The notes under the pieces were generated by a model. That model searched no databases. It had not been told where the DNA came from and saw only the letters and a program-made list of their open reading frames with translations. DNA of 64,000 nt, taken from contig JAKAGT010000002.1 of the NCBI GenBank assembly GCA_021825585.1, positions 62,001 to 126,000 of the forward strand, in the 5' to 3' direction. A program made the position numbers and the translations under genes. Each line of letters opens with the position of its first letter. Position 1 is the stretch's first letter. Below are positions 18,621-34,435 of this stretch, piece by piece. The stretch is from Bacteroidota bacterium (GTDB taxonomy: Bacteria; Bacteroidota; Ignavibacteria; Kryptoniales; JAKASW01).

Positions 18621-19331
18621 CTACTGCCTAAGTTGAAAATCCACGTTGACAGTACCATTCTGAGACACTACTGTCTTTACTGACTCGCTTTTGTAGTAAC
18701 CGAACCAAGCCCGGAGAATGTACGTCCCGGCGGGTATTCCCCTTATCTCGTAGTTACCTTCATGATCGGTCACGGCAAAATACGGATTCTGCAAAACCAC
18801 TATCCACGCCTGCATCTCAGGATGAATGTCGCAGAGAATGAGAGAAAAGCAGCCTGGCCTCTTAAACACGTGGGTCTTGCTTTCCCCCGGCGGGAACGAT
18901 CCCAGGTCGAAACTCCCTGCGCATTGAGAAGGCGTAAAGACATCATGGAGCACGTCGTCGTTGTTGAGAAATTTCACGGTCGTCCCGGCAAGAATCGGAA
19001 GGACTTCAGGCATGTATGCAAGATGTTTCTGATCCATGATGGCGTCCGTGTCCGGCGGAGCAAATACACTGTCCACATTCTCCACATATATAACTGCGTT
19101 TGCATTGCTCGACCCGTTCACAATAACCACCTTCCCCTTGACATCACCGGCACGGGCAATGACTGGAGCTAACAAGAAGGAAAGCATACAAATCACAGCC
19201 ATGAGGAACAAACGGGAACCCGGGAATCCGCTTCTCCGACAGTCCCCGGTATCAATACAGCGGGCGATTCGCGCGGCTCCGTCGGTCAGGTATATTGTTC
19301 CGGCTTCACTTTCCTGCTTCTGTCTTCGCAT
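18621..19331 (-). CDS. Cupredoxin-like secreted protein with C-terminal carboxypeptidase-regulatory domain
   Basis: Residues 55-165 form a plastocyanin-like domain: AGTTVKFLNNDDVLHDVF supplies one His ligand, and FSLILCDIHPEMQAW supplies Cys, His and Met in the spacing of a type 1 copper site. Residues 170-236 form a carboxypeptidase regulatory-like fold (YFAVTDHEGNYEIRGIPAGT). The long start at 19331 overlaps the upstream cytochrome gene by 26 bases. A start at 19202 (MAVICMLSFLLAPVIARAG) would give a standard signal peptide; neither has a clear ribosome binding site. As the last gene of the cytochrome operon it may be a periplasmic one-electron carrier. Proteins of this layout are often annotated as methylamine-utilisation-like. 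Confidence 0.8.
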   Translation of the reverse strand: MRRQKQESEAGTIYLTDGAARIARCIDTGDCRRSGFPGSRLFLMAVICMLSFLLAPVIARAGDVKGKVVIVNGSSNANAVIYVENVDSVFAPPDTDAIMDQKHLAYMPEVLPILAGTTVKFLNNDDVLHDVFTPSQCAGSFDLGSFPPGESKTHVFKRPGCFSLILCDIHPEMQAWIVVLQNPYFAVTDHEGNYEIRGIPAGTYILRAWFGYYKSESVKTVVSQNGTVNVDFQLRQ

Positions 19332-20463
19332 CTATGAAAAGATACAAAGATTTGACTTCATTTGGCAAAAGTATCGGGAGTTGTTTCCCTCTTGCGACCA
19401 GAAGCTCTTCCATTCGAGGGGCATGGTTCCACAGAGCCGCGAGGAAGTCATATTTATCGTGGAACGGCCCGAACTTCCCAATCGTTGGCGCGCCGAAATG
19501 GTTGCCGGCTTGGTGGCAGCTCTCACAACCTTTCTCTTTGAACAGCCGCGCGCCGAGCTCTGCCGATCCGGCAGTCTTCGGCGTGCCTTCGAAGTAAAGA
19601 TATGAAATCACGTCCGCCATCTGGTCTCCTGAAAATGACGGGAAAGGCCGTTTCAATGTCTTCATCGCCTCTGCCATTTTCCCCGAATGATTCCACATGA
19701 TACCTGCAATCTCGGTAACACTCTGGTCGGTGTAGATGCGGTCAATCTTCGGGCCGATCGGCTTTTCTGCGTGGCAATAATAGCATCCCTTCTCTTTGAA
19801 CAGCTGTTCGCCGCGAACGGGATTCCCCGGATACGAATATATCTCTTCATCCGACTTAAGTGAGCTTGCAGAGCGGATGTAAGCGGTAAGATCCGCAAAC
19901 TGGTCGTCTGAAAAAGTCGGGATCCTCACTCCCTTGGCAGCTCCCCGTCTGTGCATGAGTATCGAATGGTTCCACATTGCCTGTGCAAGCCTGACAGGGG
20001 ACACGTAAATCTTCATGCTGTCGAGCGCAATTTTTCCCCGAACGGGCTTGCCTATCGAATGGCAGCGTATGCAACCTTTGCTCACAAAGAGCCTTCTGCC
20101 GGTCGGTGCATTTCCGGGTTGTCCGAGATAGCGAATGAAGTATAGGAAGTCGCCGAGCCGACGGAAATCCCGGCCTGTAAAATGCGGCCTCTCAGTCTTC
20201 GTCCGCGCCATCACGAGAAGCATATTCCGGGAGTGGTTCCACATCTTAGAAAGGAGGTCGTAAGCGTTCCCGGGGAACACCTGTTTTCCAAAATCGGGCC
20301 CGATTTTACCGCCGGCTCCGTTCACGGCATGGCAGTTCAGGCAGCCTTCCTTCTCGAACACTTCCCTTCCGGCAAGTGGATTCTCCGGCAGCTGCTGCGC
20401 AGCCAGACCTGAAACAAGGAGTAGTAATATGAACGCGGTTCTTAGTGTAAAATTCTTCGCCAT
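19306..20463 (-). CDS. Tetrahaem cytochrome c made of four tandem mono-haem domains
   Basis: After a signal peptide (MAKNFTLRTAFILLLLVSGL, cut near LAAQ) the 385-residue protein has four repeats of about 90 residues. Each carries one haem site (CLNCH, CIRCH, CYYCH, CESCH) and then the motif M/L-W-N-H-S/A (KMWNHS, AMWNHS, IMWNHS, ALWNHA) with a Met a few residues on. Repeat starts are alike (GREVFEKEGC, GRRLFVSKGC, GEQLFKEKGC, GARLFKEKGC), so the gene grew by internal duplication. It should be a periplasmic electron-carrying wire. It follows the NrfD and small membrane subunits by 10 bases and is part of that operon. Confidence 0.9.
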   Translation of the reverse strand: MAKNFTLRTAFILLLLVSGLAAQQLPENPLAGREVFEKEGCLNCHAVNGAGGKIGPDFGKQVFPGNAYDLLSKMWNHSRNMLLVMARTKTERPHFTGRDFRRLGDFLYFIRYLGQPGNAPTGRRLFVSKGCIRCHSIGKPVRGKIALDSMKIYVSPVRLAQAMWNHSILMHRRGAAKGVRIPTFSDDQFADLTAYIRSASSLKSDEEIYSYPGNPVRGEQLFKEKGCYYCHAEKPIGPKIDRIYTDQSVTEIAGIMWNHSGKMAEAMKTLKRPFPSFSGDQMADVISYLYFEGTPKTAGSAELGARLFKEKGCESCHQAGNHFGAPTIGKFGPFHDKYDFLAALWNHAPRMEELLVARGKQLPILLPNEVKSLYLFIDAKTEAGK

Positions 20464-20783: not shown

Positions 20784-22148
20784 TCATATCTCCGCCTTCA
20801 CCGATGCTTCGACACGGCTTTCCTCGGTCTTCCCCGGCAGATATTCCTTCAGGCGCATCGAGACCTCATGAACGCTGTGCTCCCTGCCTTCTTTTGTCTC
20901 CCAAATTGAAATGAGCGGGAACAATTTCGAAAAGCCCATGAAACCCAGCACGAACGCGGAAGTTGCCGCGGCGGCGATTCCTATTTCCGTAATGGATGGC
21001 GTGTACATTCCGGTCGGGTAAGGCAGTCTCGGGTTCGCGAGTGTGGGTATTATTATGATTAACCTCTCGAGCCACATTCCCACGACGACTCCTATCGAAG
21101 CGACCAGGATGCCTTTGATCGTCTTCGTCTTCTTATTGCTGAGAACGATAACCGGCATAAGGAAATTACAGAGGACCATTAGCCAGAAAAACGGCGCATA
21201 CGGCCCTACAAATTTATAAAGGAAGACTCTCATCTCTGCCGGTTCATGACCGTAGAAAGTCGTGAGGAATTCCGCAAAAGTGAAGTATGTCCAGAGCAAT
21301 GAGACGACAAGAAGCAGCGTCCCCAGATACTTGAAGTGAATCTCCTTCAGATAGTCTTCAAAGTGGTACACCTTTCTGAAGACGATCATGACAATCACGA
21401 GAGCTGCAATTCCGGAATAGATTGCACCGACCACGAAATACGGCCCGAATATCGTGCTGTGCCATCCGGGCTGCAGTGTCATTCCGAATATCCATGCGAT
21501 GATCGTGTGTACGGAGATCGCTATCGGAATCACCATGACCATGAGAATGTTTATTGCTCTTTCGAGCGCATGTTTCTGCTTCGGCGTTCCTTTGTATCCC
21601 CATGCCAGTATCTTGTAAAAGTTGTGCAGCTTACCGCCGCGATCACGAAGGAGAGCGATATCGGGGATCATCGGTATATAAAGGTAAATCGTGGATGCGG
21701 TGAAATACGCGGTCACGCTCGTGAGGTCCCAGAGCAGAGGCGACTGAAGCCGTCCCCTCTCGAAAAGGTGGAGAATCCTGTCGGGTCTTCCCAGGTCGAT
21801 TACAGGGTGGAGACCGCCGATCGCGAGGACTATTCCGGTGATGACTTCCGCCATCCTGGTGATCGGACGGCGCCATTCGGCTTTCGACAAGCGCAATATC
21901 GCGGAGATAAGGGTTCCTGCATGCGATATGCCGATGAAGAACACGAAGTCTATAATGTAGAACGCCCACGAGACGGGTTCATCCATGCCTGTGGCGCCGA
22001 GTCCGTAAAACAACTGGCGTATGTAGCAGCCCAATCCGAAGAGAAAAACCGCCGTCAGGACAATGACGATGATGTAGAAACTCCTGCTGCTTTCGTAGAT
22101 CGGCCTGAACAGTACCTCGTCTTCGTCGTGGAGATCTTGATAGCTCAT
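20784..22148 (-). CDS. NrfD/PsrC/ActC-type quinone-interacting membrane subunit
   Basis: The 454-residue protein has about ten membrane helices and the family features of QrcD, ActC and PsrC: WAFYIIDFVFFIGISHAGTL in helix 2, then HPVIDLGRPDRI, GWHSTIFGPYFVVGAIYSG and VGMWLERLIIIIPTL. This subunit holds the quinone site of CISM-type complexes and contacts the ferredoxin-like subunit. Gene order (pentahaem cytochrome, molybdopterin-like protein, FeS protein, NrfD) is that of qrcABCD. It would either reduce menaquinone with electrons from cytochromes or run the reverse; the sequence does not fix the direction. Confidence 0.9.
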   Translation of the reverse strand: MSYQDLHDEDEVLFRPIYESSRSFYIIVIVLTAVFLFGLGCYIRQLFYGLGATGMDEPVSWAFYIIDFVFFIGISHAGTLISAILRLSKAEWRRPITRMAEVITGIVLAIGGLHPVIDLGRPDRILHLFERGRLQSPLLWDLTSVTAYFTASTIYLYIPMIPDIALLRDRGGKLHNFYKILAWGYKGTPKQKHALERAINILMVMVIPIAISVHTIIAWIFGMTLQPGWHSTIFGPYFVVGAIYSGIAALVIVMIVFRKVYHFEDYLKEIHFKYLGTLLLVVSLLWTYFTFAEFLTTFYGHEPAEMRVFLYKFVGPYAPFFWLMVLCNFLMPVIVLSNKKTKTIKGILVASIGVVVGMWLERLIIIIPTLANPRLPYPTGMYTPSITEIGIAAAATSAFVLGFMGFSKLFPLISIWETKEGREHSVHEVSMRLKEYLPGKTEESRVEASVKAEI

Positions 22149-22164
22149 AATTGAATATCCTTCC

Positions 22165-22851
22165 TCATTCGATAGCGTTCAGGTAGCGGACTTTGGGGAC
22201 GGTGCCGAGTTCATCGAGGAGCGCGAACGAGCGGTAGTCCCGTGACTCTTTCGACACCTCGCTCTTCTTGTCGTCGAGATCTCCGAAAGAAATAGCATCC
22301 ACCGGGCAGGTCTCCACGCACGCCGGGACGTAATCGCCCGGCTCCATGTCGCGGTGTTCCGCCTTCGCCTTCTCCGATGCGATCTGGAGCCTGTGGATAC
22401 AGAACGTACACTTCTCGACAACGCCCTTCGGACGGACCGACACGTCAGGGTCGTAGCACTTCTCGACTTCCTTCGGCTGTTCGTTCCTGTCCCAGTTGAA
22501 CACCTTCACGGTGTACGGGCAGTTTGCCATGCAGTACCTGCAGCCTATGCACTGAGGATAAATCTGTGCCACAATGCCGACTTCATTCTTGTAAGTCGCT
22601 CTGACAGGACACACCTTGATGCACGACGGCTCGTCGCACTGCATGCAATTTCGCGGGAGCGTCTTCGGCCTGATGTTCGGGTAGTCGCCTTCGAACTCCA
22701 TCGTGAGCATCTTCATCCAGAACATAGCCCTGCCATGCTGAGCATCGTACTCGGACACGATCTGCACGTTGTTCTCAATCTTGCACGCCGTGACGCACGC
22801 CTGGCATGAGCTGCACTTGTTAAGATCTATTACCATTCCATACTTTGGCAT
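22165..22851 (-). CDS. Four-cluster ferredoxin-type subunit (QrcC/PsrB/NrfC-like)
   Basis: The 228-residue protein has four cysteine groups: CSSCQACVTAC, CMQCDEPSCIKVCP, CIGCRYCMANCP and CTFC with a distant CVETCP. This is the arrangement that binds up to four iron-sulfur clusters in CISM complexes. It should link the molybdopterin-like subunit to the NrfD membrane subunit. There is no export signal of its own, so it would travel with the Tat substrate encoded just upstream. It is 16 bases upstream of the NrfD gene. Confidence 0.92.
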   Translation of the reverse strand: MPKYGMVIDLNKCSSCQACVTACKIENNVQIVSEYDAQHGRAMFWMKMLTMEFEGDYPNIRPKTLPRNCMQCDEPSCIKVCPVRATYKNEVGIVAQIYPQCIGCRYCMANCPYTVKVFNWDRNEQPKEVEKCYDPDVSVRPKGVVEKCTFCIHRLQIASEKAKAEHRDMEPGDYVPACVETCPVDAISFGDLDDKKSEVSKESRDYRSFALLDELGTVPKVRYLNAIE

Positions 22852-22940
22852 CGGAGTTCCTCTCTAATGTGAACCTTTCTTACTGTATACACCTGACAAA
22901 AGCATGACGAGCTTCATAAGTTTCGGCAAGCATACGTGGT

Positions 22941-25100
22941 CTAAACAATCTTCACCTCAGTCTCCGACAATGACGGTTTTCCCGTCTCCTCATCGAACAC
23001 AGCATCAGAATATTGCATAGGATTAACTCCGTACACTTTTTTTGAAGCGGTGTGGCCCAGACCGAACGGAACATCTATATTCGCGGGCACAACGGCAGGA
23101 TTGTATATTACAAATGCCTCGAACGCGCCCTTGCCGGTCTTGACTTTGACTTTAGTTCTGTCTCCAACTGACAATCTCTTCGCGGTCGCCGGATTTATCT
23201 CAATCCATGTCTCATAGTAGACATCTTTATCCATGCCGAACTGCTCGGTCAACACAGGATTTCGCAGCATGTTACCTCTGTAGTCGAAATTCCTGTGGAA
23301 TATGTTCAGCTTCAGCGAATTTCCCCGGGCATTCTTGCCTGGCTGATCACCCCGCCCGTTGGCCGTCAGGTGATCCACTGTTAGCGAAACGGCGGGTTTG
23401 TATTTTGAAGTCTGCGGAAAAGGATCCCACCATCCGCCGTGCTTCAGCATTTGCTGCCAGAATTCGTCAAAGCTGGAATAAGACGCCATCTGCCATCCCG
23501 CCTGGTGCAGGCTCTTCTCAAGACCGGTCGGTTTCTGCTGGTTCATCAGCATTCCCTTCCCATGCTTGTACACAGGTTTCAGGTAGCTCTGTAGATAATC
23601 CTCGTATTTCTTGCAGGACCAGTTCTTGGACAATTTGAGATCGGCGATCAAAGAGACGATCACGTCGCCGGTGTGGACCGTCGAATAGAACGGCTTGACG
23701 ACCGGCTGTTGCGTGCTGATAACAGGGGCGCCGGTAACCGTGGAACTGAACGCGTCCAGTTTTTCGAGATCGTCGTGATCCGGAATGATGAGGTCGGCCA
23801 GCTCACTTGTCTCGTCGATGAACGGAGAGAAGCTGATCACCATCGGAATGTCCGAAATGGCTTTACGGAGATCATCCTGGCCGGGCGAGTTAAACACGAA
23901 GTTACTCCTGTAGATCATCAGTATTTTGATGTCTTTGTCTCCGATGAGCATGCGGCTGTTCCATGATGACTGAGGCGACTCGTTCTCCTTTTTATTCTCA
24001 AAATCAGGGAGCTCACGATCTTTCAGTTTTCCGTATCCGGCAAATCCCTTGAGGGCGTTCAGCGCGACAACTGCATACGCGTTCCTCATTCCGCTGGACG
24101 AATACAATATCGACTCGTCGAAATACGCGACCGGGGCCGAGGCGTTCGCGAACTTGCGCGCGGTCTCGATAAGATATTTGGAAGCGACACCGGTTCGGCT
24201 CTCGACCGCCGCCGGGCTGTAGTTCTCCATGACAAGCTTCTTGAAACCGTCGAAATCCTTGAATTCATTCCCGACAAACGTCTTGTCGTACGTGCCATCG
24301 GTCAGGATAACGTAAGCGAGGCCGAGTGCCACATCCACGTAAAATTCCGGCGAAACAGGAACCCATCGGTTTGCCTTGTAAGCGTCTGGCGTGAGCTTCG
24401 GTGAGAACGTCGAGAATTCATTTCTCTTCGCTCTGAAGTCGTTCATCGAGCGCGAGAAATAAAGGGGGCTTTCGGAAATCTCCGTAAGCTGTGAACCGAA
24501 GTTCACGATGTAATCGCACGATTCAAAATCTATGAAGTCGGGATGGTCTGCCGCGGCGCGGTCGAACGGCATCGACGATGATGAAGCGAAATTGTCGACG
24601 ACGACTTTCTCCGATTCGAGACCTGCCATCAACTGCTTGATCAAACCGCCCATGAAAGCTGAATCGGTCTGAGCCACGAAAGCCGCCTTCCCTTTGCCGT
24701 TGCTCGACAGGGCGTTTGTCAGAATCCCGTAGGCTTCCGCATACGATATTTCCTGAAACCTGCCGTTCACTTTCTTCATCGGAGAAGTAAGCCGGTCAGG
24801 ATGATAGAGATTCTCGACAGAGGTCAGTCCCATCGGACAAATTCCCCCCTTGTTCATAGGCGAGAGGGGATTTCCGAAAGCCTGGACCGGAAATTTGTCG
24901 ATCATACGAACGCGGAGCCCGCACTTGCCGGGACACTTGGCACAGGTAGTCACTTTCCAGGTTTCGACGTGCGGTCCGCTATAAAGAAGCGGGACGACCA
25001 TACCGGGAATCTTGAGGAGGGCATCCCCGGCTCCACCAACCGCGAATCCGATCAACGACCCGCCCAGAAGTTTTGCAAAGTCTCGTCTATTCATTTCCAT
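22941..25100 (-). CDS. Tat-exported molybdopterin-oxidoreductase-family subunit (QrcB/ActB-like)
   Basis: The start at 25100 is preferred because GAGGAA lies 7 bases upstream and the product then opens with a twin-arginine signal (MEMNRRDFAKLLGGSLIGFA). The 719-residue protein has one [4Fe-4S] motif (CAKCPGKC, Cys53, 56, 60, and Cys88 in GGICPMG) and the fold markers of the family (SYAEAYGILTNAL, YIVNFGSQLTE, NGRGDQPGKNA near the C-terminal domain). The usual Mo ligand region reads DNFASSSSMPFDRA with no Cys or Sec, so the protein may lack a metal at the pterin site, as QrcB and ActB do. It would then act as a structural and electron-transfer subunit. Confidence 0.87.
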   Translation of the reverse strand: MEMNRRDFAKLLGGSLIGFAVGGAGDALLKIPGMVVPLLYSGPHVETWKVTTCAKCPGKCGLRVRMIDKFPVQAFGNPLSPMNKGGICPMGLTSVENLYHPDRLTSPMKKVNGRFQEISYAEAYGILTNALSSNGKGKAAFVAQTDSAFMGGLIKQLMAGLESEKVVVDNFASSSSMPFDRAAADHPDFIDFESCDYIVNFGSQLTEISESPLYFSRSMNDFRAKRNEFSTFSPKLTPDAYKANRWVPVSPEFYVDVALGLAYVILTDGTYDKTFVGNEFKDFDGFKKLVMENYSPAAVESRTGVASKYLIETARKFANASAPVAYFDESILYSSSGMRNAYAVVALNALKGFAGYGKLKDRELPDFENKKENESPQSSWNSRMLIGDKDIKILMIYRSNFVFNSPGQDDLRKAISDIPMVISFSPFIDETSELADLIIPDHDDLEKLDAFSSTVTGAPVISTQQPVVKPFYSTVHTGDVIVSLIADLKLSKNWSCKKYEDYLQSYLKPVYKHGKGMLMNQQKPTGLEKSLHQAGWQMASYSSFDEFWQQMLKHGGWWDPFPQTSKYKPAVSLTVDHLTANGRGDQPGKNARGNSLKLNIFHRNFDYRGNMLRNPVLTEQFGMDKDVYYETWIEINPATAKRLSVGDRTKVKVKTGKGAFEAFVIYNPAVVPANIDVPFGLGHTASKKVYGVNPMQYSDAVFDEETGKPSLSETEVKIV

Positions 25101-25110
25101 TTTAAATTCC

Positions 25111-25620
25111 TCATCTGTGGCAATGCGAACAGTCTGTGGTGACATGATGCTTCTCGTGGCAGTTCCAGCAGTTCTGCATTTTGATCTGGAGGAACTGTGT
25201 CTTTGGCGGCGAGTCGAGTGCCGCCATGTCTCCGTGACAAAGCTTGCAATTGAGTTTGCCTATCGCGACATGCCTGCGATGCGAAAAATAAACGTAGTCA
25301 GGAACATGATAAATATTATACCACGGTATCTGCTTGTGCTCGCTGACGTATTTATACACGAGCAGTTCCTGAGGCGTCTTCTGCATCGGCGTCGAGTGGC
25401 ACGCTCCACATACTTCGATATTAGGAATGCTCGCACGCGCACCGAGCATGACGTTCTGGTGACAGGCCATGCAGGGGATTCTGAATTTCCCTGCATGAAT
25501 AGCGTGGCTGAAAACTATCGGCTGGGTGAACTTCTCTTCTCTATCCACCGCCGTGTTCACCACGACAACTCCCGCCGAAAAGCCTATCACAATCGCGAGT
25601 AGTACCAGTTTATTTTTCAT
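25111..25620 (-). CDS. Pentahaem cytochrome c subunit (QrcA/ActA-like)
   Basis: The 169-residue protein starts with an uncleaved-looking membrane anchor (MKNKLVLLAIVIGFSAGVVV) and carries five haem sites: CMACH, CGACH, CKLCH, CWNCH, CSHCH. Extra His residues (FSHAIHAGKF, FSHRRHVAIG) can serve as distal ligands, the cytochrome c7/c3 pattern. ActA of alternative complex III has five haems and QrcA six, so by haem number this one is closer to ActA. It is the first subunit of the complex and lies 10 bases upstream of the molybdopterin-like gene. Confidence 0.92.
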   Translation of the reverse strand: MKNKLVLLAIVIGFSAGVVVVNTAVDREEKFTQPIVFSHAIHAGKFRIPCMACHQNVMLGARASIPNIEVCGACHSTPMQKTPQELLVYKYVSEHKQIPWYNIYHVPDYVYFSHRRHVAIGKLNCKLCHGDMAALDSPPKTQFLQIKMQNCWNCHEKHHVTTDCSHCHR

Positions 25621-25687: not shown

Positions 25688-26104
25688 TTATTCAATGGTT
25701 CTGAGGAATTCCAACACCGCGCGTGCCTGATCCTTCGTAAGCTGCTGGTCGGGCATCTTGGGAACGTTTGAAAATTGCTCCATCAGCGCCTTGATGGTCG
25801 GATCTTTCGCCTGCATCTCCGCAGTATTGAGCAGGTAGTTCATGATGAAGACAGGAGTCTGTTTCTTTGCCACTCCGTGGAGAGGCGGTGCAAGTTTTGT
25901 CTGGTTTATGCTGTGGCAAAGGTAGCACTTCGAATAGAAAATCGAGCTTCCTTCACTCACGAGACTCTGGTCTATTTTCCCTAATGTCACCGACTTGATC
26001 GGTCCGATGCCGTTGTCGACGCCGCCCTTCCTGGCCATTGCGAATCCCATGAGGGCAGAGACGAGCACCGACACTAAAATTGACGAGAATATTTTCGCTT
26101 TCAT
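25688..26104 (-). CDS. Mono-haem class I cytochrome c
   Basis: The 138-residue protein has a signal peptide (MKAKIFSSILVSVLVSALMG), one haem site (SKCYLCHSI), LAPPLHG after it, and a Met ligand candidate in VPKMPDQQLTKDQARAVLEF near the C-terminus, the usual class I layout. It lies between the Cyc2-like porin cytochrome (14 bases upstream) and the pentahaem subunit. This is where a periplasmic shuttle between outer and inner membrane would be expected. Confidence 0.9.
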   Translation of the reverse strand: MKAKIFSSILVSVLVSALMGFAMARKGGVDNGIGPIKSVTLGKIDQSLVSEGSSIFYSKCYLCHSINQTKLAPPLHGVAKKQTPVFIMNYLLNTAEMQAKDPTIKALMEQFSNVPKMPDQQLTKDQARAVLEFLRTIE

Positions 26105-26118
26105 TTTTGCACTCCTTT

Positions 26119-27486
26119 CTAAAACGCGAACCAGGTTAACAAATACAATGTATTGTTATCGGAAGCGTTTCTACCGAAACCATCATAGTTGGTAGATCCG
26201 CCGTTGAACTTTGAATAAGCGACATATTGCAGCGATATCTGTGTGTTGAGCCAGGGGATGTAAGAGACCTGCGCAGTAATCCCGCTGCTGTTCGGAGAGC
26301 CGTTTGCGCTGCCGGTTACCGACGCTGGCGAATAGAAGACGGCGTCGCTCGTTCCGGTCGTCGTGAAGTATCCCAGTGCGACCTGGAACGGCGCCGGGAA
26401 GTTGTAGTTGGCGTCAATCTTAAATGTGTTGAGAGTCAGACTGTTTGAAGATGATCCGCCAGCCGCAAATGTTGCATCAAGATTTTGCTTTTCGGTTATG
26501 TAGCCAGCATGCGCGATAAGTTCGCCGCCGCCGAGCGCCTTCTCGTACTGCGCGTCGAAGCCGATGTCCGTGTACGTGTCGTACGGGCCGGAAATCCCCA
26601 CGGGGAACAAGCTCGACGACAGTCCGAAAGTCCCGACCTCGAGATACTGGTTACCCCAACTGTGCTGCATCGCGATACGCCAGTAGGGAGATACGCCTTT
26701 TATGTTGTCCGTCCAGGTTGAATCGGCCGGATAGGAAAGCCCCTGAATGGCAGAGTGATAAGCACTCACTCCGACATATAGGAGATTATCGTAAAGCCCG
26801 TATACACCGAGCCCGAGCACGTTGCCGGACATCGCATTGTCGAGGATAGGCGACCATGACGGCGTCGGAGCCGACGCTGATGACGCGTATGGAAATCCCC
26901 AAGCAGGCGTCGTGTTCCACACGTCCTCCATGGATGGGTTGTTGTTGAGCGTTATTCCGTAAAGCAGGTCGTTGCCGGCAAGCATCGTGTGATCCGCATA
27001 CCTGAACTCTGCCATGTCCATACCGATCGTGCCTGCCGATGGATCGTAAGTAAGCTGGATGTACGAGCCAAGCTTCGGGGTAAGTTCACCCGACAGGAAG
27101 AAGCTCAGCTGCTGAGGGAACTCCGTTGCGCTTGCCTCTGCCCCGGGTGTCGCCTTGCTGACCTGACTGAATGACGTCATCACCATCGCAGACAACGGGA
27201 AGCTGCTGAGTATCTGCAGATCGTTAGTCTGGTTGTGAGCAGCGACCAAAGTCGGGCTTCCGACCATGGTGTATCCGTTCAGCTTGAACAGTCTGCCGAA
27301 CGGAGTGAGCTGCGGGAAGTTGTAATGACAGGCGCTGCAGGCCATTCCGGTTTGTCGGGCATAGCTCGGTATGCAATAAGCATTCGAGCTCGAGAAAATC
27401 ACGATAGCCCCCACCAGAGCCGCCACAAGCGAGAGTGTCCTGCCGCTCTTCCCTAATGTCTTTCCTGCGTGTAACAATGACTGCAT
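26119..27486 (-). CDS. Cyc2-like fused cytochrome-porin (outer membrane)
   Basis: The start at 27486 is fixed by GGAGG upstream. After a signal sequence (to about residue 37) comes PSYARQTGMACSACHYNFPQ, then LTPFGRLFKLNGYTM. That is the short N-terminal mono-haem segment (CSACH, 50-54) typical of Cyc2-like proteins. The remaining roughly 380 residues are an outer-membrane beta-barrel rich in alternating strands and ending TLYLLTWFAF with a C-terminal aromatic. Cyc2 of iron-oxidising bacteria takes electrons from Fe(II) through the barrel to periplasmic cytochromes. Many Cyc2-like proteins are uncharacterised, so the donor here is an inference. At 455 residues it is in the family range. It is the second gene of the sigma-54-preceded operon. 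Confidence 0.82.
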   Translation of the reverse strand: MQSLLHAGKTLGKSGRTLSLVAALVGAIVIFSSSNAYCIPSYARQTGMACSACHYNFPQLTPFGRLFKLNGYTMVGSPTLVAAHNQTNDLQILSSFPLSAMVMTSFSQVSKATPGAEASATEFPQQLSFFLSGELTPKLGSYIQLTYDPSAGTIGMDMAEFRYADHTMLAGNDLLYGITLNNNPSMEDVWNTTPAWGFPYASSASAPTPSWSPILDNAMSGNVLGLGVYGLYDNLLYVGVSAYHSAIQGLSYPADSTWTDNIKGVSPYWRIAMQHSWGNQYLEVGTFGLSSSLFPVGISGPYDTYTDIGFDAQYEKALGGGELIAHAGYITEKQNLDATFAAGGSSSNSLTLNTFKIDANYNFPAPFQVALGYFTTTGTSDAVFYSPASVTGSANGSPNSSGITAQVSYIPWLNTQISLQYVAYSKFNGGSTNYDGFGRNASDNNTLYLLTWFAF

Positions 27487-27535: not shown

Positions 27536-27919
27536 TCAGTTCGTGCGCCGCCTGTTTTGCAGGCAGCTTCGCACGGCATGCTGCAGCTCCTTCAGTTCCA
27601 GCGGTTTCAAAAGGAGATAGCTGGCTCCGTATAACTTCAGCTCGGACTCGCTCACCGTATCTGGATACCCGGTTATTGCGATGATGGGAATCTTCGGTTG
27701 AAGTCTCTTGGCATTGATCACGAAAGCGACTCCCGTTTCGAGGTTCAGCCTGAGGTCGGTTATCAGGAGATCGAATTTTTCTTCCTGCATTCTGCGAAGC
27801 GCTTCTTCCGGAGCCGGGGCCGCTGCCATCAGACACCCCTCACGTTTCAGGAAATCCTGAAATGCGAGAAGGATGTTTGTGTCATCATCGAAAACCAAAA
27901 CTTTAGGTCTGTGTGTCAT
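27536..27919 (-). CDS. Single-domain response regulator
   Basis: This 127-residue CheY-like receiver has the acidic pair in VLVFDDDTN, phosphoacceptor Asp55 (LLITDLRL), Thr83 (AITGYP) and Lys105 (LLLKPLE). It has no output domain. It is the first gene behind the sigma-54 promoter and is followed by the Cyc2-like gene after 49 bases. It may be a phosphate sink or partner for the nearby kinase. No clear ribosome binding site precedes the ATG, and the predicted leader is only about 16 bases. Confidence 0.9.
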   Translation of the reverse strand: MTHRPKVLVFDDDTNILLAFQDFLKREGCLMAAAPAPEEALRRMQEEKFDLLITDLRLNLETGVAFVINAKRLQPKIPIIAITGYPDTVSESELKLYGASYLLLKPLELKELQHAVRSCLQNRRRTN

Positions 27920-27946
27920 GATGCTACAGCATTCGGGACTAGAGCG

Positions 27947-27961
27947 GCAAAGGGTGTGCCA
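27947..27961 (-). promoter_or_regulatory. Sigma-54 promoter of the Cyc2/cytochrome operon
   Basis: The minus strand reads TGGCAC-ACCCT-TTGC. It matches the consensus TGGCAC-N5-TTGC at every position, with GG and GC 12 bases apart as required. The predicted transcription start is near 27935, 16 bases before the response regulator ATG. The NtrC-type activator and its kinase are encoded directly upstream. Confidence 0.85.
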
Positions 27962-28033
27962 CCAACTTCGTTTTGGAAATACGTCTAATCCGTAAGATTA
28001 TGGAAGGATGTGAAGCTGGAATCCGCTAGGAGT

Positions 28034-28050
28034 GACAAGCGGCGCTTGTC
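28034..28050. promoter_or_regulatory. 17-bp palindrome, candidate enhancer site for the NtrC-type regulator
   Basis: GACAAGC-GGC-GCTTGTC is a dyad with perfect 7-bp arms. Its centre lies about 107 bases upstream of the predicted sigma-54 start site, where bacterial enhancer-binding proteins normally bind. It is not followed by a T-run on either strand, so a terminator is less likely. Confidence 0.6.
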
Positions 28051-28090
28051 GCGTGTAAAATAAAAATGTCAGGCTCTAGGTTTAACCTTT

Positions 28091-28128: not shown

Positions 28129-30618
28129 CTACGCCACTCCGGCGGCAAGCGTCGGGTGCACGAGCGGCAGGATTATCCTGAACTTAGTACCGGCGCCGGT
28201 ACTGCTCTCGACCATGATGATTCCCCCGTGTCCATTGACGACGCGTTTCGCCATGGAGAGACCCAGGCCGGTGCCGTTCAGCTTCGTCGTGAAGAACGGG
28301 TCAAATATCTTCGACAGATTCCCCTTCTCGATTCCCGGGCCGGTATCGCTTATTTCTATCTGCACGCACCCGGTTCCCTTTTTCAGCACAATTTCCTCCA
28401 GATCCGGATTCTGATCCGTCAAAGGTTCCGCCAGTTCAACGTACATGAAATCTCTCAACGATTTACCGAGCCTTGTGGTCTTCGTGGAAATAGAAATCGT
28501 TGAAGCTTGCTGCCCGATATGCTCCCTTTGCTGCAATGAAAAGTCACGGTTTTCTATCGCCTGAACCGCGTTGAGTATAATATTCACAAGTGCTTCTCTG
28601 AGATGAACGACGTCCAGCGACAAATCAGGCAACGCCGCCTGCAAATTTGTATCAATGCTTACCGCGGCTTTGTCAGCCCTCACCTTGACAAATGCTGCGC
28701 TTTCTTCGATGACTTTGTTGACGGAAGCCGTCTTGAAGTCCATCTTCGTCGGTCTTGCAAATCCAAGAAGCTCCGACACCGTCGTCTCCATCCTGTAGGC
28801 GGAATTCAAAGCCACGGTCAGCGATTCCTTTTTGGATTCGTCAAGGTCCTGCGACTCACTTATCAGCTGCAGTATCATTTTAATGGAAGTCAGTGAATTC
28901 CTGAACTCGTGGGCGATGAACGCAGCAAGCTCGCCCATCGTCGCGAGTTTCTCCGTCTTTACAAGATGCTGTTCGAGCCGTTTCCTGCTTGTCACATCGG
29001 TGACGATCTCCAGGATTGCGTCTATCTCTCCGTCCTTTTCCATCGGCACGGCGAAGTGTTCGATGTACCTGTCGGTGCCGTCTGAATTCAACACCTGGTC
29101 CAGGTGCACCTCGACTTTCCCAGTTTGAATTACGCTTTGGCTCATGCAAGTCTGGCAGAAGCCCGCAGCACAGAAGAAATCCCCGCAATTCTTTCCGATA
29201 ACCTGCTCGGGTTGGTATCCGGTGACTCTCGCGAAAGCCGCACTGACTGTCTGTATCCTCAGTTTCTTGTCGAGAACGAGGAGCGCGCTCGGCACATTAT
29301 CGAGTATCGTTTGCAGCTTCGATTTCTCATCCGAAAGCTCCTTCGTCCGTTCGGCCACCGTTCTCTCAAGACTTGCCCTGTGGTTTTGGAGCTCCTTATC
29401 ACGGACCATAAGCGACTCTGCCATCGTGTTTAATTGGTCCGCGAGCTTCTCTATCTCGTCGCGTGTCTCGATCTTGAGCCGATGCTTATAGTTTCCGCTT
29501 GATATGATCTCTGCCCCTCTCCTCATTTCCCCGATCGGTTTTGTGAATTGTCGTGTCGCAAGAAGGCTGAGCGTCACGGACAAAATCAGGAAACCGACAA
29601 TCGCTCCACCGAACGCGAAGGTCGCAGAGTAGACGGGTCCCATCAGAACTTCCTTCGGCATCGCCTCGACGACGAACAAAGGCATGGAGAAAGCCGCTTC
29701 GATGTCCTGTCCACCGGCTGTGTGGACATTCGGGAAAAGCGGTGCGTATGAGACCACTTGCTTTATACCGCTGGATATGATTCCGCTTTTGCCGGAGAGG
29801 AGTTGAGCGGAGACCGGAGCGGGGTATTCGGTCTTGATGTCGGCCCTGGCCAATAAGAAGAGTTTGTTCCAATCCCGCTTCCGCTGCGAATCGTAGAGGA
29901 AGTGCCCGTCCCCACTGACCAGGAATAATCTTCTGTCATATTTGTGAGAGGAGTCGGATTGCATCGTTTGGAAGAATCTCGACGCGAAAACATCTGCTAC
30001 TAAAATTCCTGCTCTCTTGCTGCCGATATAGAGAGGCGTTGCGAAGCTGATTACTGCCACGGGTCTGCCGTTCTCACCGAGGACCTCTCCCGGCGAAAAG
30101 ACCGTTCGGTCCTTCTTCAAAGAATCGGTGAGAAAGACATAATAGTATTCAGGGTTCCGGCTGAGGTCCTTCTGCGGTGACACGGCGAACCCGCCGGAAC
30201 CGAATTTGCCCGAAGTGGCACCCACCCGGACGATCTCCTCTCCTGACCTGTCGAGGATCGCAATCCTGTAGTAGACATTCTTCGTCTTGATAAAATCGAG
30301 AAGCTCCGATTGAAGCGGGCGCAGCGTTGTCAGTACTTCATTGTCCGCAAGCTGCGCATCAACGGGTCGGAACGGGGAGGAGTCCGACAGGAATTTCAAA
30401 TCCGTTTGGATACCCCCAAGAAAATCTCCGGCGCGCTGCCGGACCATCTGCATGTCGTTGTCGAGATTCCGCGTCGCCGTGTCCACAAGATTGCCCGCCG
30501 TGGCCCAGACCGCAAAGACTCCGACGATCGCTATCGGAATTATAGACAGGCCGGTGAATGCAATGATCAGTTTTGTGCGTATCGACAGCCAGGGGAAAAG
30601 GCGATTGATGTTGATCAA
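28129..30618 (-). CDS. Membrane sensor histidine kinase (dCache-HAMP-PAS-HisKA-HATPase)
   Basis: The 829-residue protein has a first membrane helix (14-42), an extracytoplasmic dCache-like sensor domain (about 50-310), a second helix (325-350, AFGGAIVGFLILSVTLSLLA), HAMP (350-405), a coiled coil, a PAS domain (about 435-540), the phosphorylation helix AAFIAHEFRNSLTSIKMILQ, and a GHKL ATPase (N-box ALVNIILNAVQAIEN, then DTGPGIE and NGTGLGLSMAKRVVNGHGG). The PAS domain holds a cysteine group (CGDFFCAAGFCQTCMSQ) seen in a subset of NtrB-like kinases, possibly redox- or metal-linked. It lies 10 bases after the NtrC-type regulator gene, and the two should form a pair. Confidence 0.93.
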   Translation of the reverse strand: MININRLFPWLSIRTKLIIAFTGLSIIPIAIVGVFAVWATAGNLVDTATRNLDNDMQMVRQRAGDFLGGIQTDLKFLSDSSPFRPVDAQLADNEVLTTLRPLQSELLDFIKTKNVYYRIAILDRSGEEIVRVGATSGKFGSGGFAVSPQKDLSRNPEYYYVFLTDSLKKDRTVFSPGEVLGENGRPVAVISFATPLYIGSKRAGILVADVFASRFFQTMQSDSSHKYDRRLFLVSGDGHFLYDSQRKRDWNKLFLLARADIKTEYPAPVSAQLLSGKSGIISSGIKQVVSYAPLFPNVHTAGGQDIEAAFSMPLFVVEAMPKEVLMGPVYSATFAFGGAIVGFLILSVTLSLLATRQFTKPIGEMRRGAEIISSGNYKHRLKIETRDEIEKLADQLNTMAESLMVRDKELQNHRASLERTVAERTKELSDEKSKLQTILDNVPSALLVLDKKLRIQTVSAAFARVTGYQPEQVIGKNCGDFFCAAGFCQTCMSQSVIQTGKVEVHLDQVLNSDGTDRYIEHFAVPMEKDGEIDAILEIVTDVTSRKRLEQHLVKTEKLATMGELAAFIAHEFRNSLTSIKMILQLISESQDLDESKKESLTVALNSAYRMETTVSELLGFARPTKMDFKTASVNKVIEESAAFVKVRADKAAVSIDTNLQAALPDLSLDVVHLREALVNIILNAVQAIENRDFSLQQREHIGQQASTISISTKTTRLGKSLRDFMYVELAEPLTDQNPDLEEIVLKKGTGCVQIEISDTGPGIEKGNLSKIFDPFFTTKLNGTGLGLSMAKRVVNGHGGIIMVESSTGAGTKFRIILPLVHPTLAAGVA

Positions 30619-30627
30619 TGCCGTGGC

Positions 30628-32046
30628 CTATTGCCTTTTCCGGAAATCGTCTGCGTCGATGCCGTGTTTGGAGACCAGCCGCTGGAAATTCTGCCTTGTC
30701 ATGCCGGACGAACGGGCCGCCGCCACGATGCTTCCCTGACACTTTTTCAATATCTCAACTACAAACGACTTCTCAAACCTGTCGATAGCCCGCTTTCTTG
30801 CATCGGCAAAATTGCCGCCGTCGCATCCGTATTCTCCGTTCGACTGCATGCCCGCCAGGTCTCCAAGTCCGCGTGATGTAATAACATCCTGCTTTGCCAT
30901 GACAGCTGCCCGCTCGACAATATTCTCAAGCTCGCGGACGTTACCCGGATATTGCAGATGGACGAGAACCTCCAATGCATCCCCGGAAAAACCCGCTATC
31001 TTTTTCCTGAACCGCTCCGAGTACTTTGCAAGAAAATAGTCCGCGAGGACGGGTATATCCTCCCGCCGTTCACGCAGCGGGGGTAGACTGATGACGATGA
31101 CGTTCAGCCGGTAGAAGAGATCCTTCCTGAAGCTTCCTTTACTGACCTCTGCTTCAATGTCCCTGTTAGTCGCCGCAATGAACCTCGCACCCACTTCTAT
31201 GGTCTCGTTCGAGCCGAGCCGCTCGAATTGTCGTTCCTGGAGCACCCTAAGAAGTTTTTGCTGGAGCATCGGCGAGAGATCGCCTATCTCATCAAGGAAA
31301 ATCGTACCATGTTTTGCTATTTCAAACTTTCCGGGCTTTCTCTCGTTAGCGCCGGTGAAGGCCCCTTTTTCGTACCCGAAGAGTTCCGATTCAAGCAGCG
31401 TCTCCGGCACTGCAGTGCAATTAACCGCGATGAACGGCTGCCCCGAGTCTGCTCCATAGCTGTGGACGGCCCTTGCAACAAGCTCCTTTCCGGTTCCGCT
31501 TTCGCCCAACAAAAGCACCGGAGTAAGATTAGGCGTAGTGGAGATGGATCCGATCAGTTTGTATATGTATTGCATCTGCGGACTCTTGCCGACCAGTTCA
31601 TACTTGTCGGCAAATTCCGCCTTGAGCGGGTCCGCAGGGCCGTGCGACTTCTCAATTCCCTCCAGCCGCGCTATCGCCTCTCCCGTTACCTTCCGCACCT
31701 GCTGGATGTCAAGTGGCTTCGTCAGGTAATCGAATGCGCCAAACTGCATCGCGCGCACAGCCGTCTCGACTGTGCCGTATCCCGTAACCATTATGACGGG
31801 CAGCGTCGGATTTCTCTTCTTCATTTCCTTGAGCGTATCCAATCCGTTCATGCCCGGCATATTTATGTCCATGAAAACGAGTCTCAGGTTCTCATCGGGT
31901 AGGATTTCCAGACCTTTCAGCGCATCGCCCGCAGTTACAACGGCGTAACCGTCATTCAGGAATAACTGCTTGAGTGCGTAGACGATTCCCTCGTCATCGT
32001 CTATTACAAGAATTTTGTGCTTCTCGTTCTCCATCATTTTCGACAT
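30628..32046 (-). CDS. NtrC-family sigma-54-dependent response regulator
   Basis: The 472-residue protein has three domains. The receiver has phosphoacceptor Asp60 (FMDINMPG). The AAA+ domain has Walker A GESGTGKE (181-188), the sigma-54 contact loop GAFTGA (228-233) and GTIFLDEIGDLS. The C-terminal Fis-type helix-turn-helix is GSIVAAARSSGMTRQNFQRL. All residues needed to drive sigma-54 open-complex formation are present. With the kinase downstream it forms a two-component system whose most obvious target is the sigma-54 promoter 2.7 kb further on, in front of the Cyc2 operon. Confidence 0.95.
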   Translation of the reverse strand: MSKMMENEKHKILVIDDDEGIVYALKQLFLNDGYAVVTAGDALKGLEILPDENLRLVFMDINMPGMNGLDTLKEMKKRNPTLPVIMVTGYGTVETAVRAMQFGAFDYLTKPLDIQQVRKVTGEAIARLEGIEKSHGPADPLKAEFADKYELVGKSPQMQYIYKLIGSISTTPNLTPVLLLGESGTGKELVARAVHSYGADSGQPFIAVNCTAVPETLLESELFGYEKGAFTGANERKPGKFEIAKHGTIFLDEIGDLSPMLQQKLLRVLQERQFERLGSNETIEVGARFIAATNRDIEAEVSKGSFRKDLFYRLNVIVISLPPLRERREDIPVLADYFLAKYSERFRKKIAGFSGDALEVLVHLQYPGNVRELENIVERAAVMAKQDVITSRGLGDLAGMQSNGEYGCDGGNFADARKRAIDRFEKSFVVEILKKCQGSIVAAARSSGMTRQNFQRLVSKHGIDADDFRKRQ

Positions 32047-32686: not shown

Positions 32687-34435
32687 ATGAACATCAAATC
32701 TGTTTATGGAAAACTCAAAGTCTATGCTCCCTTCAGGCTGGCCGACTCTTTCTTCAGCAAGTCCGATCAAAAGCTGTCCGCCTTGAAATTTCCCCTCCCT
32801 CCTCTACTCAGAAAATCGAGAGTGATTGCAGGCTCTTTCATACTCGTTCTCCTGATCCTGTTTTTCTCGGTCCATTCCTTTTCTTCGTCTCTGTCGAACG
32901 TGCCGACATACCGGGTGAAGAATGATAATTTCGTCGTGTCGATAACGGAGAGCGGGGAGATAAGGGCGAAGAACGCTACATCGATTGTCACTCCCGGCGT
33001 GAGGGGGAACATGAAGATTGTCTACCTTATTCCGGAGGGAACGTACGTGCATGCGGGCGACGTTGCAGTCAGGTTCGATCCGACCGAGGCCATGACAAAC
33101 CTTAAGGACGCGCAATCGAGGCTCGAGATCGCAATCTCAGACAAGGCGAAGCTTGCCGCGGACCAGAAGTCGCAGCTGACCAACCTCGAATCGGCGCTCA
33201 AAGAAGCCCGGCTTTCTTTCGAGCTCTCGAAGCTGAACCTCGAACAGATGAAGTTCGAAGCCGAGATAAAGCAGCAGCAGTCCAAGCTCGAGCTCGAGAG
33301 AAACCAGCTTAACCTGACGAAGGCACAGCAGGAACTCGAATCTCAGAAGATTATTCAGAGGTCCGAGATGGGCAAAACCGATATCCAGGTCGAGCAGGCA
33401 AAAGCCACGCTCGACAAAGCGAAGAGAGATCTCGATGCGCTCACGCTGAAGGCTCCGAAGGAGGGGCTGGTCGTCTATGAGACGAACTGGAGCACCGGCA
33501 GAAAGATCATGATCGGCGACACCCCATGGCCCGGCATGCCGCTCGTCAGTCTTCCCGATCTCTCGGCAATGCAAAGCATGACATACGTGAACGAAGTCGA
33601 CGTCAGCAGAGTCAGCGCGGGACAGAAAGTCCTGGTGAAGCTGGATGCGTTTCAGGACAGCACATTCACAGGCGTAATCTCATCCGTTGCATCGCTGGGA
33701 AGAACCAAGGACAGGACTTCGACCATAAAGGTCTTCGAAGTCGACGTCGATGTCCTGTCGCAATCGCCCATACTGAAACCCGGGATGACCACGATGCTGT
33801 ACAAAATGGAGCCTTCGCCGCCGAACACGTCCGGCGTGACTTACTATTTCCCCGGGATGCAGCAGCCGGCCAATGTAATCGACAGGAATTCTGTCGATGA
33901 GCTGACCGCCAAGGTAAGCAACTCCGACCATGTAAACGTAGACGCGTATCTCGTCGCCAAAATCCTCGAAAGAAAGCATTACGGCATAATAGATTACGAG
34001 TTAATCCTGCCCGAGGCGCTGCTGGCACAGAAGCAGAAAACCCAGAGGATATTCAACATAGTCATGGGTGCAATCGCCGGGATATCCCTCCTCGTCGGGG
34101 GAATCGGGATAATGAACATCATGCTGGCCAGCATACTGGAGCGGACGAGAGAAATAGGCCTGCGGAGGGCTGTGGGCGCTACAAAGAACGATGTGCTCAG
34201 CCAATTCATTTACGAAGCGTTGACAATAAGCGTCGCGGGCGGGTTGACCGGAATCGTCGTCGGCTTCATCCTGACTTCCCTGATTTCGACTTACGCCGAT
34301 TGGAAGACGATCATTTCCCTGTATTCCATCCTGCTCGCCTTCGTCATTTCGGTTACAACCGGCTTGATCTTCGGAATCTATCCCGCCAAGCAGGCGGCAG
34401 ACAAGAATCCGATCGACTCTCTAAGGTATGAATGA
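32687..34435 (+). CDS. Chimeric efflux protein: periplasmic adaptor fused to the C-terminal half of a MacB-type permease
   Basis: The 582-residue frame joins two normally separate proteins. Residues 1 to about 385 are a HlyD/MacA-type adaptor: membrane anchor (45-65), beta-barrel start (YRVKNDNFVVSITESGEIRA), a long coiled coil (120-245) and the LKAPKEGLVVYETNWSTGRK lipoyl region. From about residue 395 (VDELTAKVSNSDHVNVDAYL) it becomes the end of a MacB/FtsX permease with three membrane helices (FNIVMGAIAGISLLVGGIGI, MNIMLASILERTREIGLRRA, and FGIYPAKQAADKNPIDSLRY at the end). The adaptor C-terminus, the whole ATPase and the permease N-terminal half are missing. An in-frame deletion in an adaptor-MacB-TolC operon explains this; transport activity is unlikely. 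Confidence 0.85.
   Translation: MNIKSVYGKLKVYAPFRLADSFFSKSDQKLSALKFPLPPLLRKSRVIAGSFILVLLILFFSVHSFSSSLSNVPTYRVKNDNFVVSITESGEIRAKNATSIVTPGVRGNMKIVYLIPEGTYVHAGDVAVRFDPTEAMTNLKDAQSRLEIAISDKAKLAADQKSQLTNLESALKEARLSFELSKLNLEQMKFEAEIKQQQSKLELERNQLNLTKAQQELESQKIIQRSEMGKTDIQVEQAKATLDKAKRDLDALTLKAPKEGLVVYETNWSTGRKIMIGDTPWPGMPLVSLPDLSAMQSMTYVNEVDVSRVSAGQKVLVKLDAFQDSTFTGVISSVASLGRTKDRTSTIKVFEVDVDVLSQSPILKPGMTTMLYKMEPSPPNTSGVTYYFPGMQQPANVIDRNSVDELTAKVSNSDHVNVDAYLVAKILERKHYGIIDYELILPEALLAQKQKTQRIFNIVMGAIAGISLLVGGIGIMNIMLASILERTREIGLRRAVGATKNDVLSQFIYEALTISVAGGLTGIVVGFILTSLISTYADWKTIISLYSILLAFVISVTTGLIFGIYPAKQAADKNPIDSLRYE

Follow-up and report, generated by a model that had tools for sequence, protein, structure and literature searches.

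A predicted sigma-54 control cassette in front of a Cyc2-type electron-conduit operon and in its relatives across one bacterial class

Little is known of how bacteria control the building of outer-membrane electron conduits. In the case of cyc2, the available text of PMC5506826 describes control through sigma-70 promoters and RegA in one acidophile. The stretch of DNA considered here, 64,000 nucleotides long and called the window throughout, raises the question of whether an operon encoding a Cyc2-like protein might be governed in another way, by the regulatory genes that lie beside it. The relevant features are these, in the order in which they would be transcribed:

30628..32046, minus strand: NtrC-type activator, with receiver, AAA+ domain carrying GAFTGA, and Fis-type HTH
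28129..30618, minus strand: histidine kinase, with dCache, HAMP, PAS, HisKA and HATPase
28053..28071, minus strand: distal block resembling an operator, TGACATTTTTATTTTACAC, 20 bp further upstream than the proximal one, 9 of 17 columns invariant
28033..28051, minus strand: putative proximal operator, 19-mer CGACAAGCGCCGCTTGTCA, with the palindrome at 28034-28050 as its core
27947..27961, minus strand: predicted sigma-54 (-24/-12) promoter, TGGCAC-N5-TTGC, predicted start near 27935, kept in seven of seven orthologues
27536..27919, minus strand: receiver-only protein, 127 aa, phospho-acceptor Asp present, first gene behind the promoter
26119..27486, minus strand: Cyc2-like cytochrome-porin, one CXXCH, CIPSYARQT before it and PQL after it
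25688..26104, minus strand: monohaem cytochrome c
25111..25620, minus strand: multihaem cytochrome, QrcA-like (below the NCBIfam cut-off)
22941..25145, minus strand: molybdopterin-type oxidoreductase subunit, QrcB-like (below cut-off)
22165..22851, minus strand: 4Fe-4S subunit
20784..22148, minus strand: NrfD-type membrane subunit
19306..20463, minus strand: cytochrome c, several haem sites, conserved at the cluster end

The activator and the kinase are, as a preliminary description of this DNA had proposed, the next genes upstream, and they share the minus strand with the operon. Like AtoC, ZraR, and NtrC, the activator has a receiver (with its Asp), an AAA+ domain with GAFTGA, and a C-terminal Fis-type HTH, the last read from the sequence, as no model matched it. 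Unlike the proteins of those three equivalogs, it scores below their NCBIfam curated cut-offs (the best, AtoC, at 438 of 714 bits). The promoter had been described as serving a Cyc2 operon. The operon does lie behind it, but the first gene, separated from the kinase gene by a gap of 209 bp, encodes the receiver-only protein rather than Cyc2.

The Cyc2-like protein has a single CXXCH, a PXL after the haem site, and a length over 365, which are criteria taken from the available text of PMC8406198. Its CIPSYARQT deviates from the motif AXPXFAR[QK][TY] at two positions (A to C and F to Y); the cassettes of other families, described below, have AIPAFARKY-type motifs before the haem site. No Pfam or NCBIfam model matched the protein, and a structure predicted from seven sequences was discarded (mean pLDDT 25.7), leaving the porin as a prediction. 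The genes behind Cyc2 (20784-25620) find their best matches in QrcA and QrcB of the Qrc menaquinone reductase of sulfate reducers, all below the NCBIfam cut-offs (QrcA 94 of 180, QrcB 244 of 440, QrcD 40 of 570 bits). That likeness suggests a path by which electrons could pass between the outer membrane and menaquinone, leading inward. Electron uptake is the favoured direction for the operon, export being the alternative, because Cyc2 homologues oxidise Fe(II), according to the text available of PMC8406198, and because of the resemblance of the downstream genes to Qrc, below cut-offs though it is. Elsewhere in the window (32687-34435), a 582-aa frame appears, by eye, to join an HlyD-like adaptor to the C-terminus of a MacB/FtsX-like permease and is followed by a TolC-like gene; the frame is either a fusion or a collapsed assembly.

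The exact match to the -24/-12 consensus that had been claimed for the coding strand, TGGCAC-ACCCT-TTGC, is indeed there: TGGCACACCCTTTGC, at 27961-27947 on the minus (coding) strand, is the sole exact match in a scan of the 64-kb window, and its GG (-24) and GC (-12) stand ten bases apart, as in sigma-54 promoters. The genome has one copy of rpoN and encodes about 19 strong sigma-54 activator domains. With one mismatch allowed, the same scan gives 4 matches where 3.6 are expected, so window-wide the motif alone is weak evidence for a promoter, and the argument must turn to what surrounds it.

NtrC-family activators are associated with enhancer-like dyads upstream of -24/-12. A candidate for such a dyad is GACAAGC-GGC-GCTTGTC at 28034-28050, the sole exact copy in the 4.97-Mb genome. 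Its centre (28042) lies 107 bp from the start placed at 27935, just as first described, and so within the range of about 80-150 bp upstream where such sites are looked for. It had been taken for a single 17-bp palindrome. The palindrome is present, but the element is better read as a tandem site: the palindrome is the core of a putative 19-bp operator, TGNCAA-N7-TTGNCA, which has a degenerate copy 20 bp upstream. In this distal block the left half is conserved and the right half degenerate, and its position fits the tandem sites of the other cassettes. Separate operator types for the window and for its paralogue, which have the same recognition helix, were considered and dropped; the conflict disappears once both are read with this one consensus and one spacing.

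The preliminary description had named beforehand an outcome that would have spoken against it, namely that the elements are not conserved before orthologous operons. They are. A search of 41 genomes for the Cyc2-like protein found the same cluster in six others of the genus, with Cyc2 81-86% identical; these close relatives are draft genomes from metagenomes. CAAGY-N3-GCTTGTC and YGGCAY-N5-TTG both occur in the gap of all seven orthologous clusters. From the -12 element to the start codon the distance is 31 bp in every one of them, and the centre of the palindrome precedes -24 by 79-83 bp. The base after TTG is A rather than C in two of them (L036 and L038). The gaps themselves are only 40-68% identical in pairwise comparison, save one near-identical pair at 93%, and that the elements are kept in gaps so diverged points to constraint, not to shared ancestry alone. 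In the alignment of the seven sequences, invariant columns make up 11 of 17 in the palindrome, 7 of 15 in the promoter, and 9 of 17 in the block that precedes the palindrome by 20 bp (TGMCA...TTTMC, well kept in the genus), and 8 of 145 in the rest. When each of the seven gaps was shuffled 4000 times with dinucleotides preserved, YGGCAYN5TTG appeared in 0.15-0.55% of shuffles and the palindrome pattern in none, both patterns having been written after the alignment was seen. A scan of 13 genus genomes for CAAGYN3GCTTGTC gave 24 rows at 22 places. Only at the seven orthologous places is the match outside any long frame, with a sigma-54 site downstream of it; the remaining 15 matches fall within open frames of 163-913 aa, and none has such a site.

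It might still be that the operon is transcribed mainly from a promoter upstream of the kinase and activator genes, or from a sigma-70-type promoter that was not recognised, with sigma-54 playing a minor part. All the genes are on one strand with no terminator seen in the gap, and the sigma-70 consensus used for scanning may be unlike the promoters of this phylum. The fixed spacing with which -24/-12 is kept in diverged gaps argues the other way, however, and makes this very improbable.

Four further genomes of the genus (L043-L046) have a Cyc2 that is 50-54% identical and has no such regulatory genes next to it. Upstream of it there is nevertheless a sigma-54-like site when the sequences are aligned: TGGCACAGCTATTGA in L043 and L044, TGGCATGGCTATTGA in L045, and CGGCATGCTTGTTGC in L046. 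L043 and L044 also have an inverted repeat there, GGGGCAA...TTGCCCC.

The same arrangement of dyads and promoter turns up in cassettes that are not orthologous to that of the window. For these comparisons a composite was defined as tandem dyads plus a sigma-54 site at 75-100 bp. It is carried by L042, a paralogous cassette on contig 73 of the window's own genome, with two tandem 19-bp sites, amid genes in the order kinase, activator, receiver, 61% identical Cyc2, cytochrome, Rieske, cytochrome b. Another paralogous cassette (L097, genome G004, contig 258) carries the composite too. Behind the receiver of L097 there is no Cyc2; a cytochrome c and a Rieske-like gene stand there instead. The search outside the genus took in 296 genomes of the phylum, and a profile of the kinase was run on 391 genomes of the class, of which 44 matched. 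Forty kinase loci outside the genus were retrieved (41 rows, since G503 was split in two); G563 was left out of the scripted analysis, and G422 ends inside the kinase gene.

In 21 of the 40 loci, from 18 genomes of families f4, f13, f17, f19, and f20, kinase and activator come first, then the tandem sites with the sigma-54 site, then the receiver. All 21 have 19-bp dyads in tandem, 21-23 bp apart (20-23 bp when L042 is counted in), and all have a -24/-12 site 83-95 bp beyond the centre of the proximal dyad. The lone receiver is the first gene wherever the contig reaches it, although in G535 about 2 kb separates it from the activator; in G497 (L150), the contig ends before any recognisable receiver. 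In shuffled gaps the tandem score was reached in 0 of 200 shuffles for all 20 loci of one test (G535 left out) and, in a second (G497 left out), in 0 of 200 for 19 of 20 and 5 of 200 for G544. The strict sigma-54 pattern fell within its 26-position slot in 11 of 8400 shuffles. A 22nd locus (G343, L158) has the promoter, and was missed by the 19-bp rule because its proximal dyad reads one base shorter. At L145 and L146, the top-scoring sigma-54-like site lay inside the operator, where TTGGCA resembles a -24 element; it was rejected, and the actual sites are at 93-94 bp. As for the loci other than these 22, three have an activator and a Cyc2 with neither receiver nor composite, three have an activator with no conduit beside it, G015 is without receiver or conduit in the stretch of contig left, and G422, G489, and G563 end at a contig edge. 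Of the remaining eight, all weak matches that involve mainly the kinase core, four have an activator and a receiver without the composite, and four have no activator beside them.

These cassettes bear also on the idea that the palindrome serves as a terminator or RNA hairpin for the kinase gene, whose stop codon lies 79 bp before it on the same strand. Outside the genus of the window, the tandem sites come after the activator gene rather than the kinase gene, and their distances to the promoter are fixed all the same. Since, in addition, no terminator-like site was found where 1.2 would be expected, such a role can be given hardly any credence.

What follows the switch is not always the same. 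Behind the receiver, 16 of the 21 cassettes encode a one-haem protein with a Cyc2-type motif and three (in G605, G400, and G599) a multihaem protein of MtrA type, while in two (the second copy in G520, and G497) the contig ends before the conduit. G605 and G400 have genes above the curated cut-offs of the models for DmsE-type decahaem cytochromes and for MtrB/PioB (at L147 and L149, TIGR03508 257 and 258 of 192 bits and TIGR03509 287 and 327 of 240); in G599, where the contig ends, the cytochrome alone was read, by eye. The stretches with MtrA/DmsE-type multihaem genes are L147:4755-8206, L149:4711-8000, and L159 after 3221; in L147 and L149 a gene for an MtrB/PioB porin follows the multihaem genes. 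Both types of cassette, Cyc2 and MtrA, occur once each in G605 and in G599. With genes of either type behind the same cassette, the control part would be constant and the conduit interchangeable.

Is the composite particular to such cassettes? Within the window, scanned on both strands, it occurs once, at the promoter and operator site (27947-28071). It is absent from all 17 regions around the genome's other strong activator genes, from the three loci with kinase, activator, and Cyc2 that lack a receiver (G494, G447, and G580), and from beside the three activators with no adjoining conduit; at the four loci with kinase, activator, and receiver and no conduit, neither the composite nor a sigma-54 site was found. 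L042, L097, L104, and L105 are not independent tests, because the rule for the dyads was derived from these four. The six other orthologues of the genus were left out of the composite scan. Three of them (L039, L040, and L041) would score below the threshold, because the left half of the proximal site has lost its outer bases; in L041, the top-scoring 19-mer is a different inverted repeat, the inner palindrome being intact. The weakened distal site and the swapped order of activator and kinase genes suggest that the genus of the window has a derived form of a design found across the class.

Which protein would bind the dyads? The cassettes outside the genus fall into two classes: 17 of 21 have left half-sites YGNMAA and an activator whose recognition helix reads M[TS]RQN[FL]QR, and 4 of 21 have left half-sites YGTCAC and a helix RQSL[YH]R, a helix of the second class being found also in the 22nd locus. 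Position 6 of the left half-site is A in 17 of 17 cassettes with the first helix and C in 4 of 4 with the second. This is a fair test, because that position lies outside the core score by which the sites were found. In the window the helix is TRQNFQR, and the proximal half-sites end in CAA on both sides in all seven clusters of the genus, so by these sequences the window cassette belongs to the first class. The covariation of helix and half-site links the palindrome with the NtrC-type protein encoded beside it, and it is the best sequence evidence for the adjoining activator as the predicted binder. One might otherwise suppose that the sigma-54 promoter is real and that some other regulator, perhaps a repressor or redox regulator, binds the palindrome, the adjacent activator acting elsewhere; after all, the palindrome is short, and by itself it would probably not be unusual in a gap of 209 bp. 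Another regulator's site would hardly be expected to change with the recognition helix of the activator from cassette to cassette, and in the sequences examined the site recurs solely beside this type of activator. The supposition is therefore unlikely.

The class with TGTCAC sites is distinct in another respect. In all five rows of its receivers (L105, L139, L144, L158, and L162), Glu replaces the phospho-acceptor Asp, which is kept in 27 of the 27 aligned receiver rows outside the class; the position in the alignment is the one expected for the phospho-acceptor of receivers. At L105, L139, and L144, the matching kinase is without similarity to the dCache sensor half.

The promoter and operator elements, the distances between them, the fact that all seven orthologues keep them, and the pairing of half-site with helix support the earlier proposal that the operon is wired to the neighbouring NtrC-type system, and it is very probable that a phosphorylation-controlled sigma-54 switch, worked by the adjoining activator, governs the receiver and conduit operon. 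Against it count the degenerate right half of the distal site in the genus of the window, the outer bases lost from the proximal site in L039, L040, and L041, the loci described above that lack the composite or a sigma-54 site, and the four genus genomes whose Cyc2 stands apart from such regulators. According to the model, the dCache/PAS kinase would sense a signal from the envelope or a redox signal and phosphorylate the activator. Activator dimers would then occupy the tandem sites, two helical turns apart and some 107 and 127 bp upstream of the start, and the DNA would loop to bring them to the sigma-54 polymerase held at the promoter, which would open. Transcription would yield the receiver-only protein first, then the outer-membrane electron conduit together with the proteins that partner it in the periplasm and the membrane. 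The same kinase probably passes phosphate to the receiver too, so that the receiver competes with the activator and damps the switch.

Control of this kind is not in itself new. In Acidithiobacillus ferrooxidans, to judge from the available text of PMC5506826, sigma-54 promoters serve the tet and cyd operons, which have activator genes next to them, so sigma-54 control of energy operons by an adjacent activator is of a known kind. The resemblance to tet is close, as there too a sigma-54 promoter serves an operon of energy metabolism and a kinase and an NtrC-type activator lie just upstream. The targets there, however, are sulfur oxidation and cyd, here an outer-membrane conduit, and the same text makes no mention, for tet or cyd, of a receiver-only first gene or of a tandem operator. 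The rus operon of that organism, which contains cyc2, is likewise under a two-component system, RegB/RegA, but it differs in having sigma-70 promoters and a global redox regulator rather than one of NtrC type, with no common binding motif reported (PMC5506826, in the text available). In Geobacter sulfurreducens, RpoN touches cytochromes of extracellular electron transfer, with the consensus TTGGCACGGTTTTTGCT, and extracellular electron transfer is also among the functions whose changed genes showed no RpoN element; what the available text of PMC2725144 describes is a global regulon, with no dedicated cassette of the sort seen here. Searches of the open-licence PMC literature turned up no description of a class-wide pairing with conduits, of a lone receiver as first gene, or of helix and operator classes. 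BccR is a sigma-54 regulator beside a Geobacter cytochrome operon; a search for it in the same literature was without match.

Because the same switch precedes different genes for outer-membrane electron wires in relatives of the organism, it looks like a control cassette dedicated to the exchange of electrons with the outside. A broader proposal, more tentative and on balance doubtful, is that the cassette serves outer-membrane conduits throughout the class, that conduits of the Cyc2 or the MtrA/MtrB type may be plugged into it, that paralogues within a genome are insulated from each other by their pairs of operator and helix, and that the receiver acts as a phosphate sink adapting the switch, with a Glu-type receiver in one branch. 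In any case, a compact cassette running from sensor to promoter recurs, within one class, in six families or more, and precedes conduits of two unrelated types. It opens the signal for external electron exchange to testing, its sequence can serve as a signature by which to find conduit genes, and the cassettes together make a natural data set on how NtrC-type regulators choose their operators.
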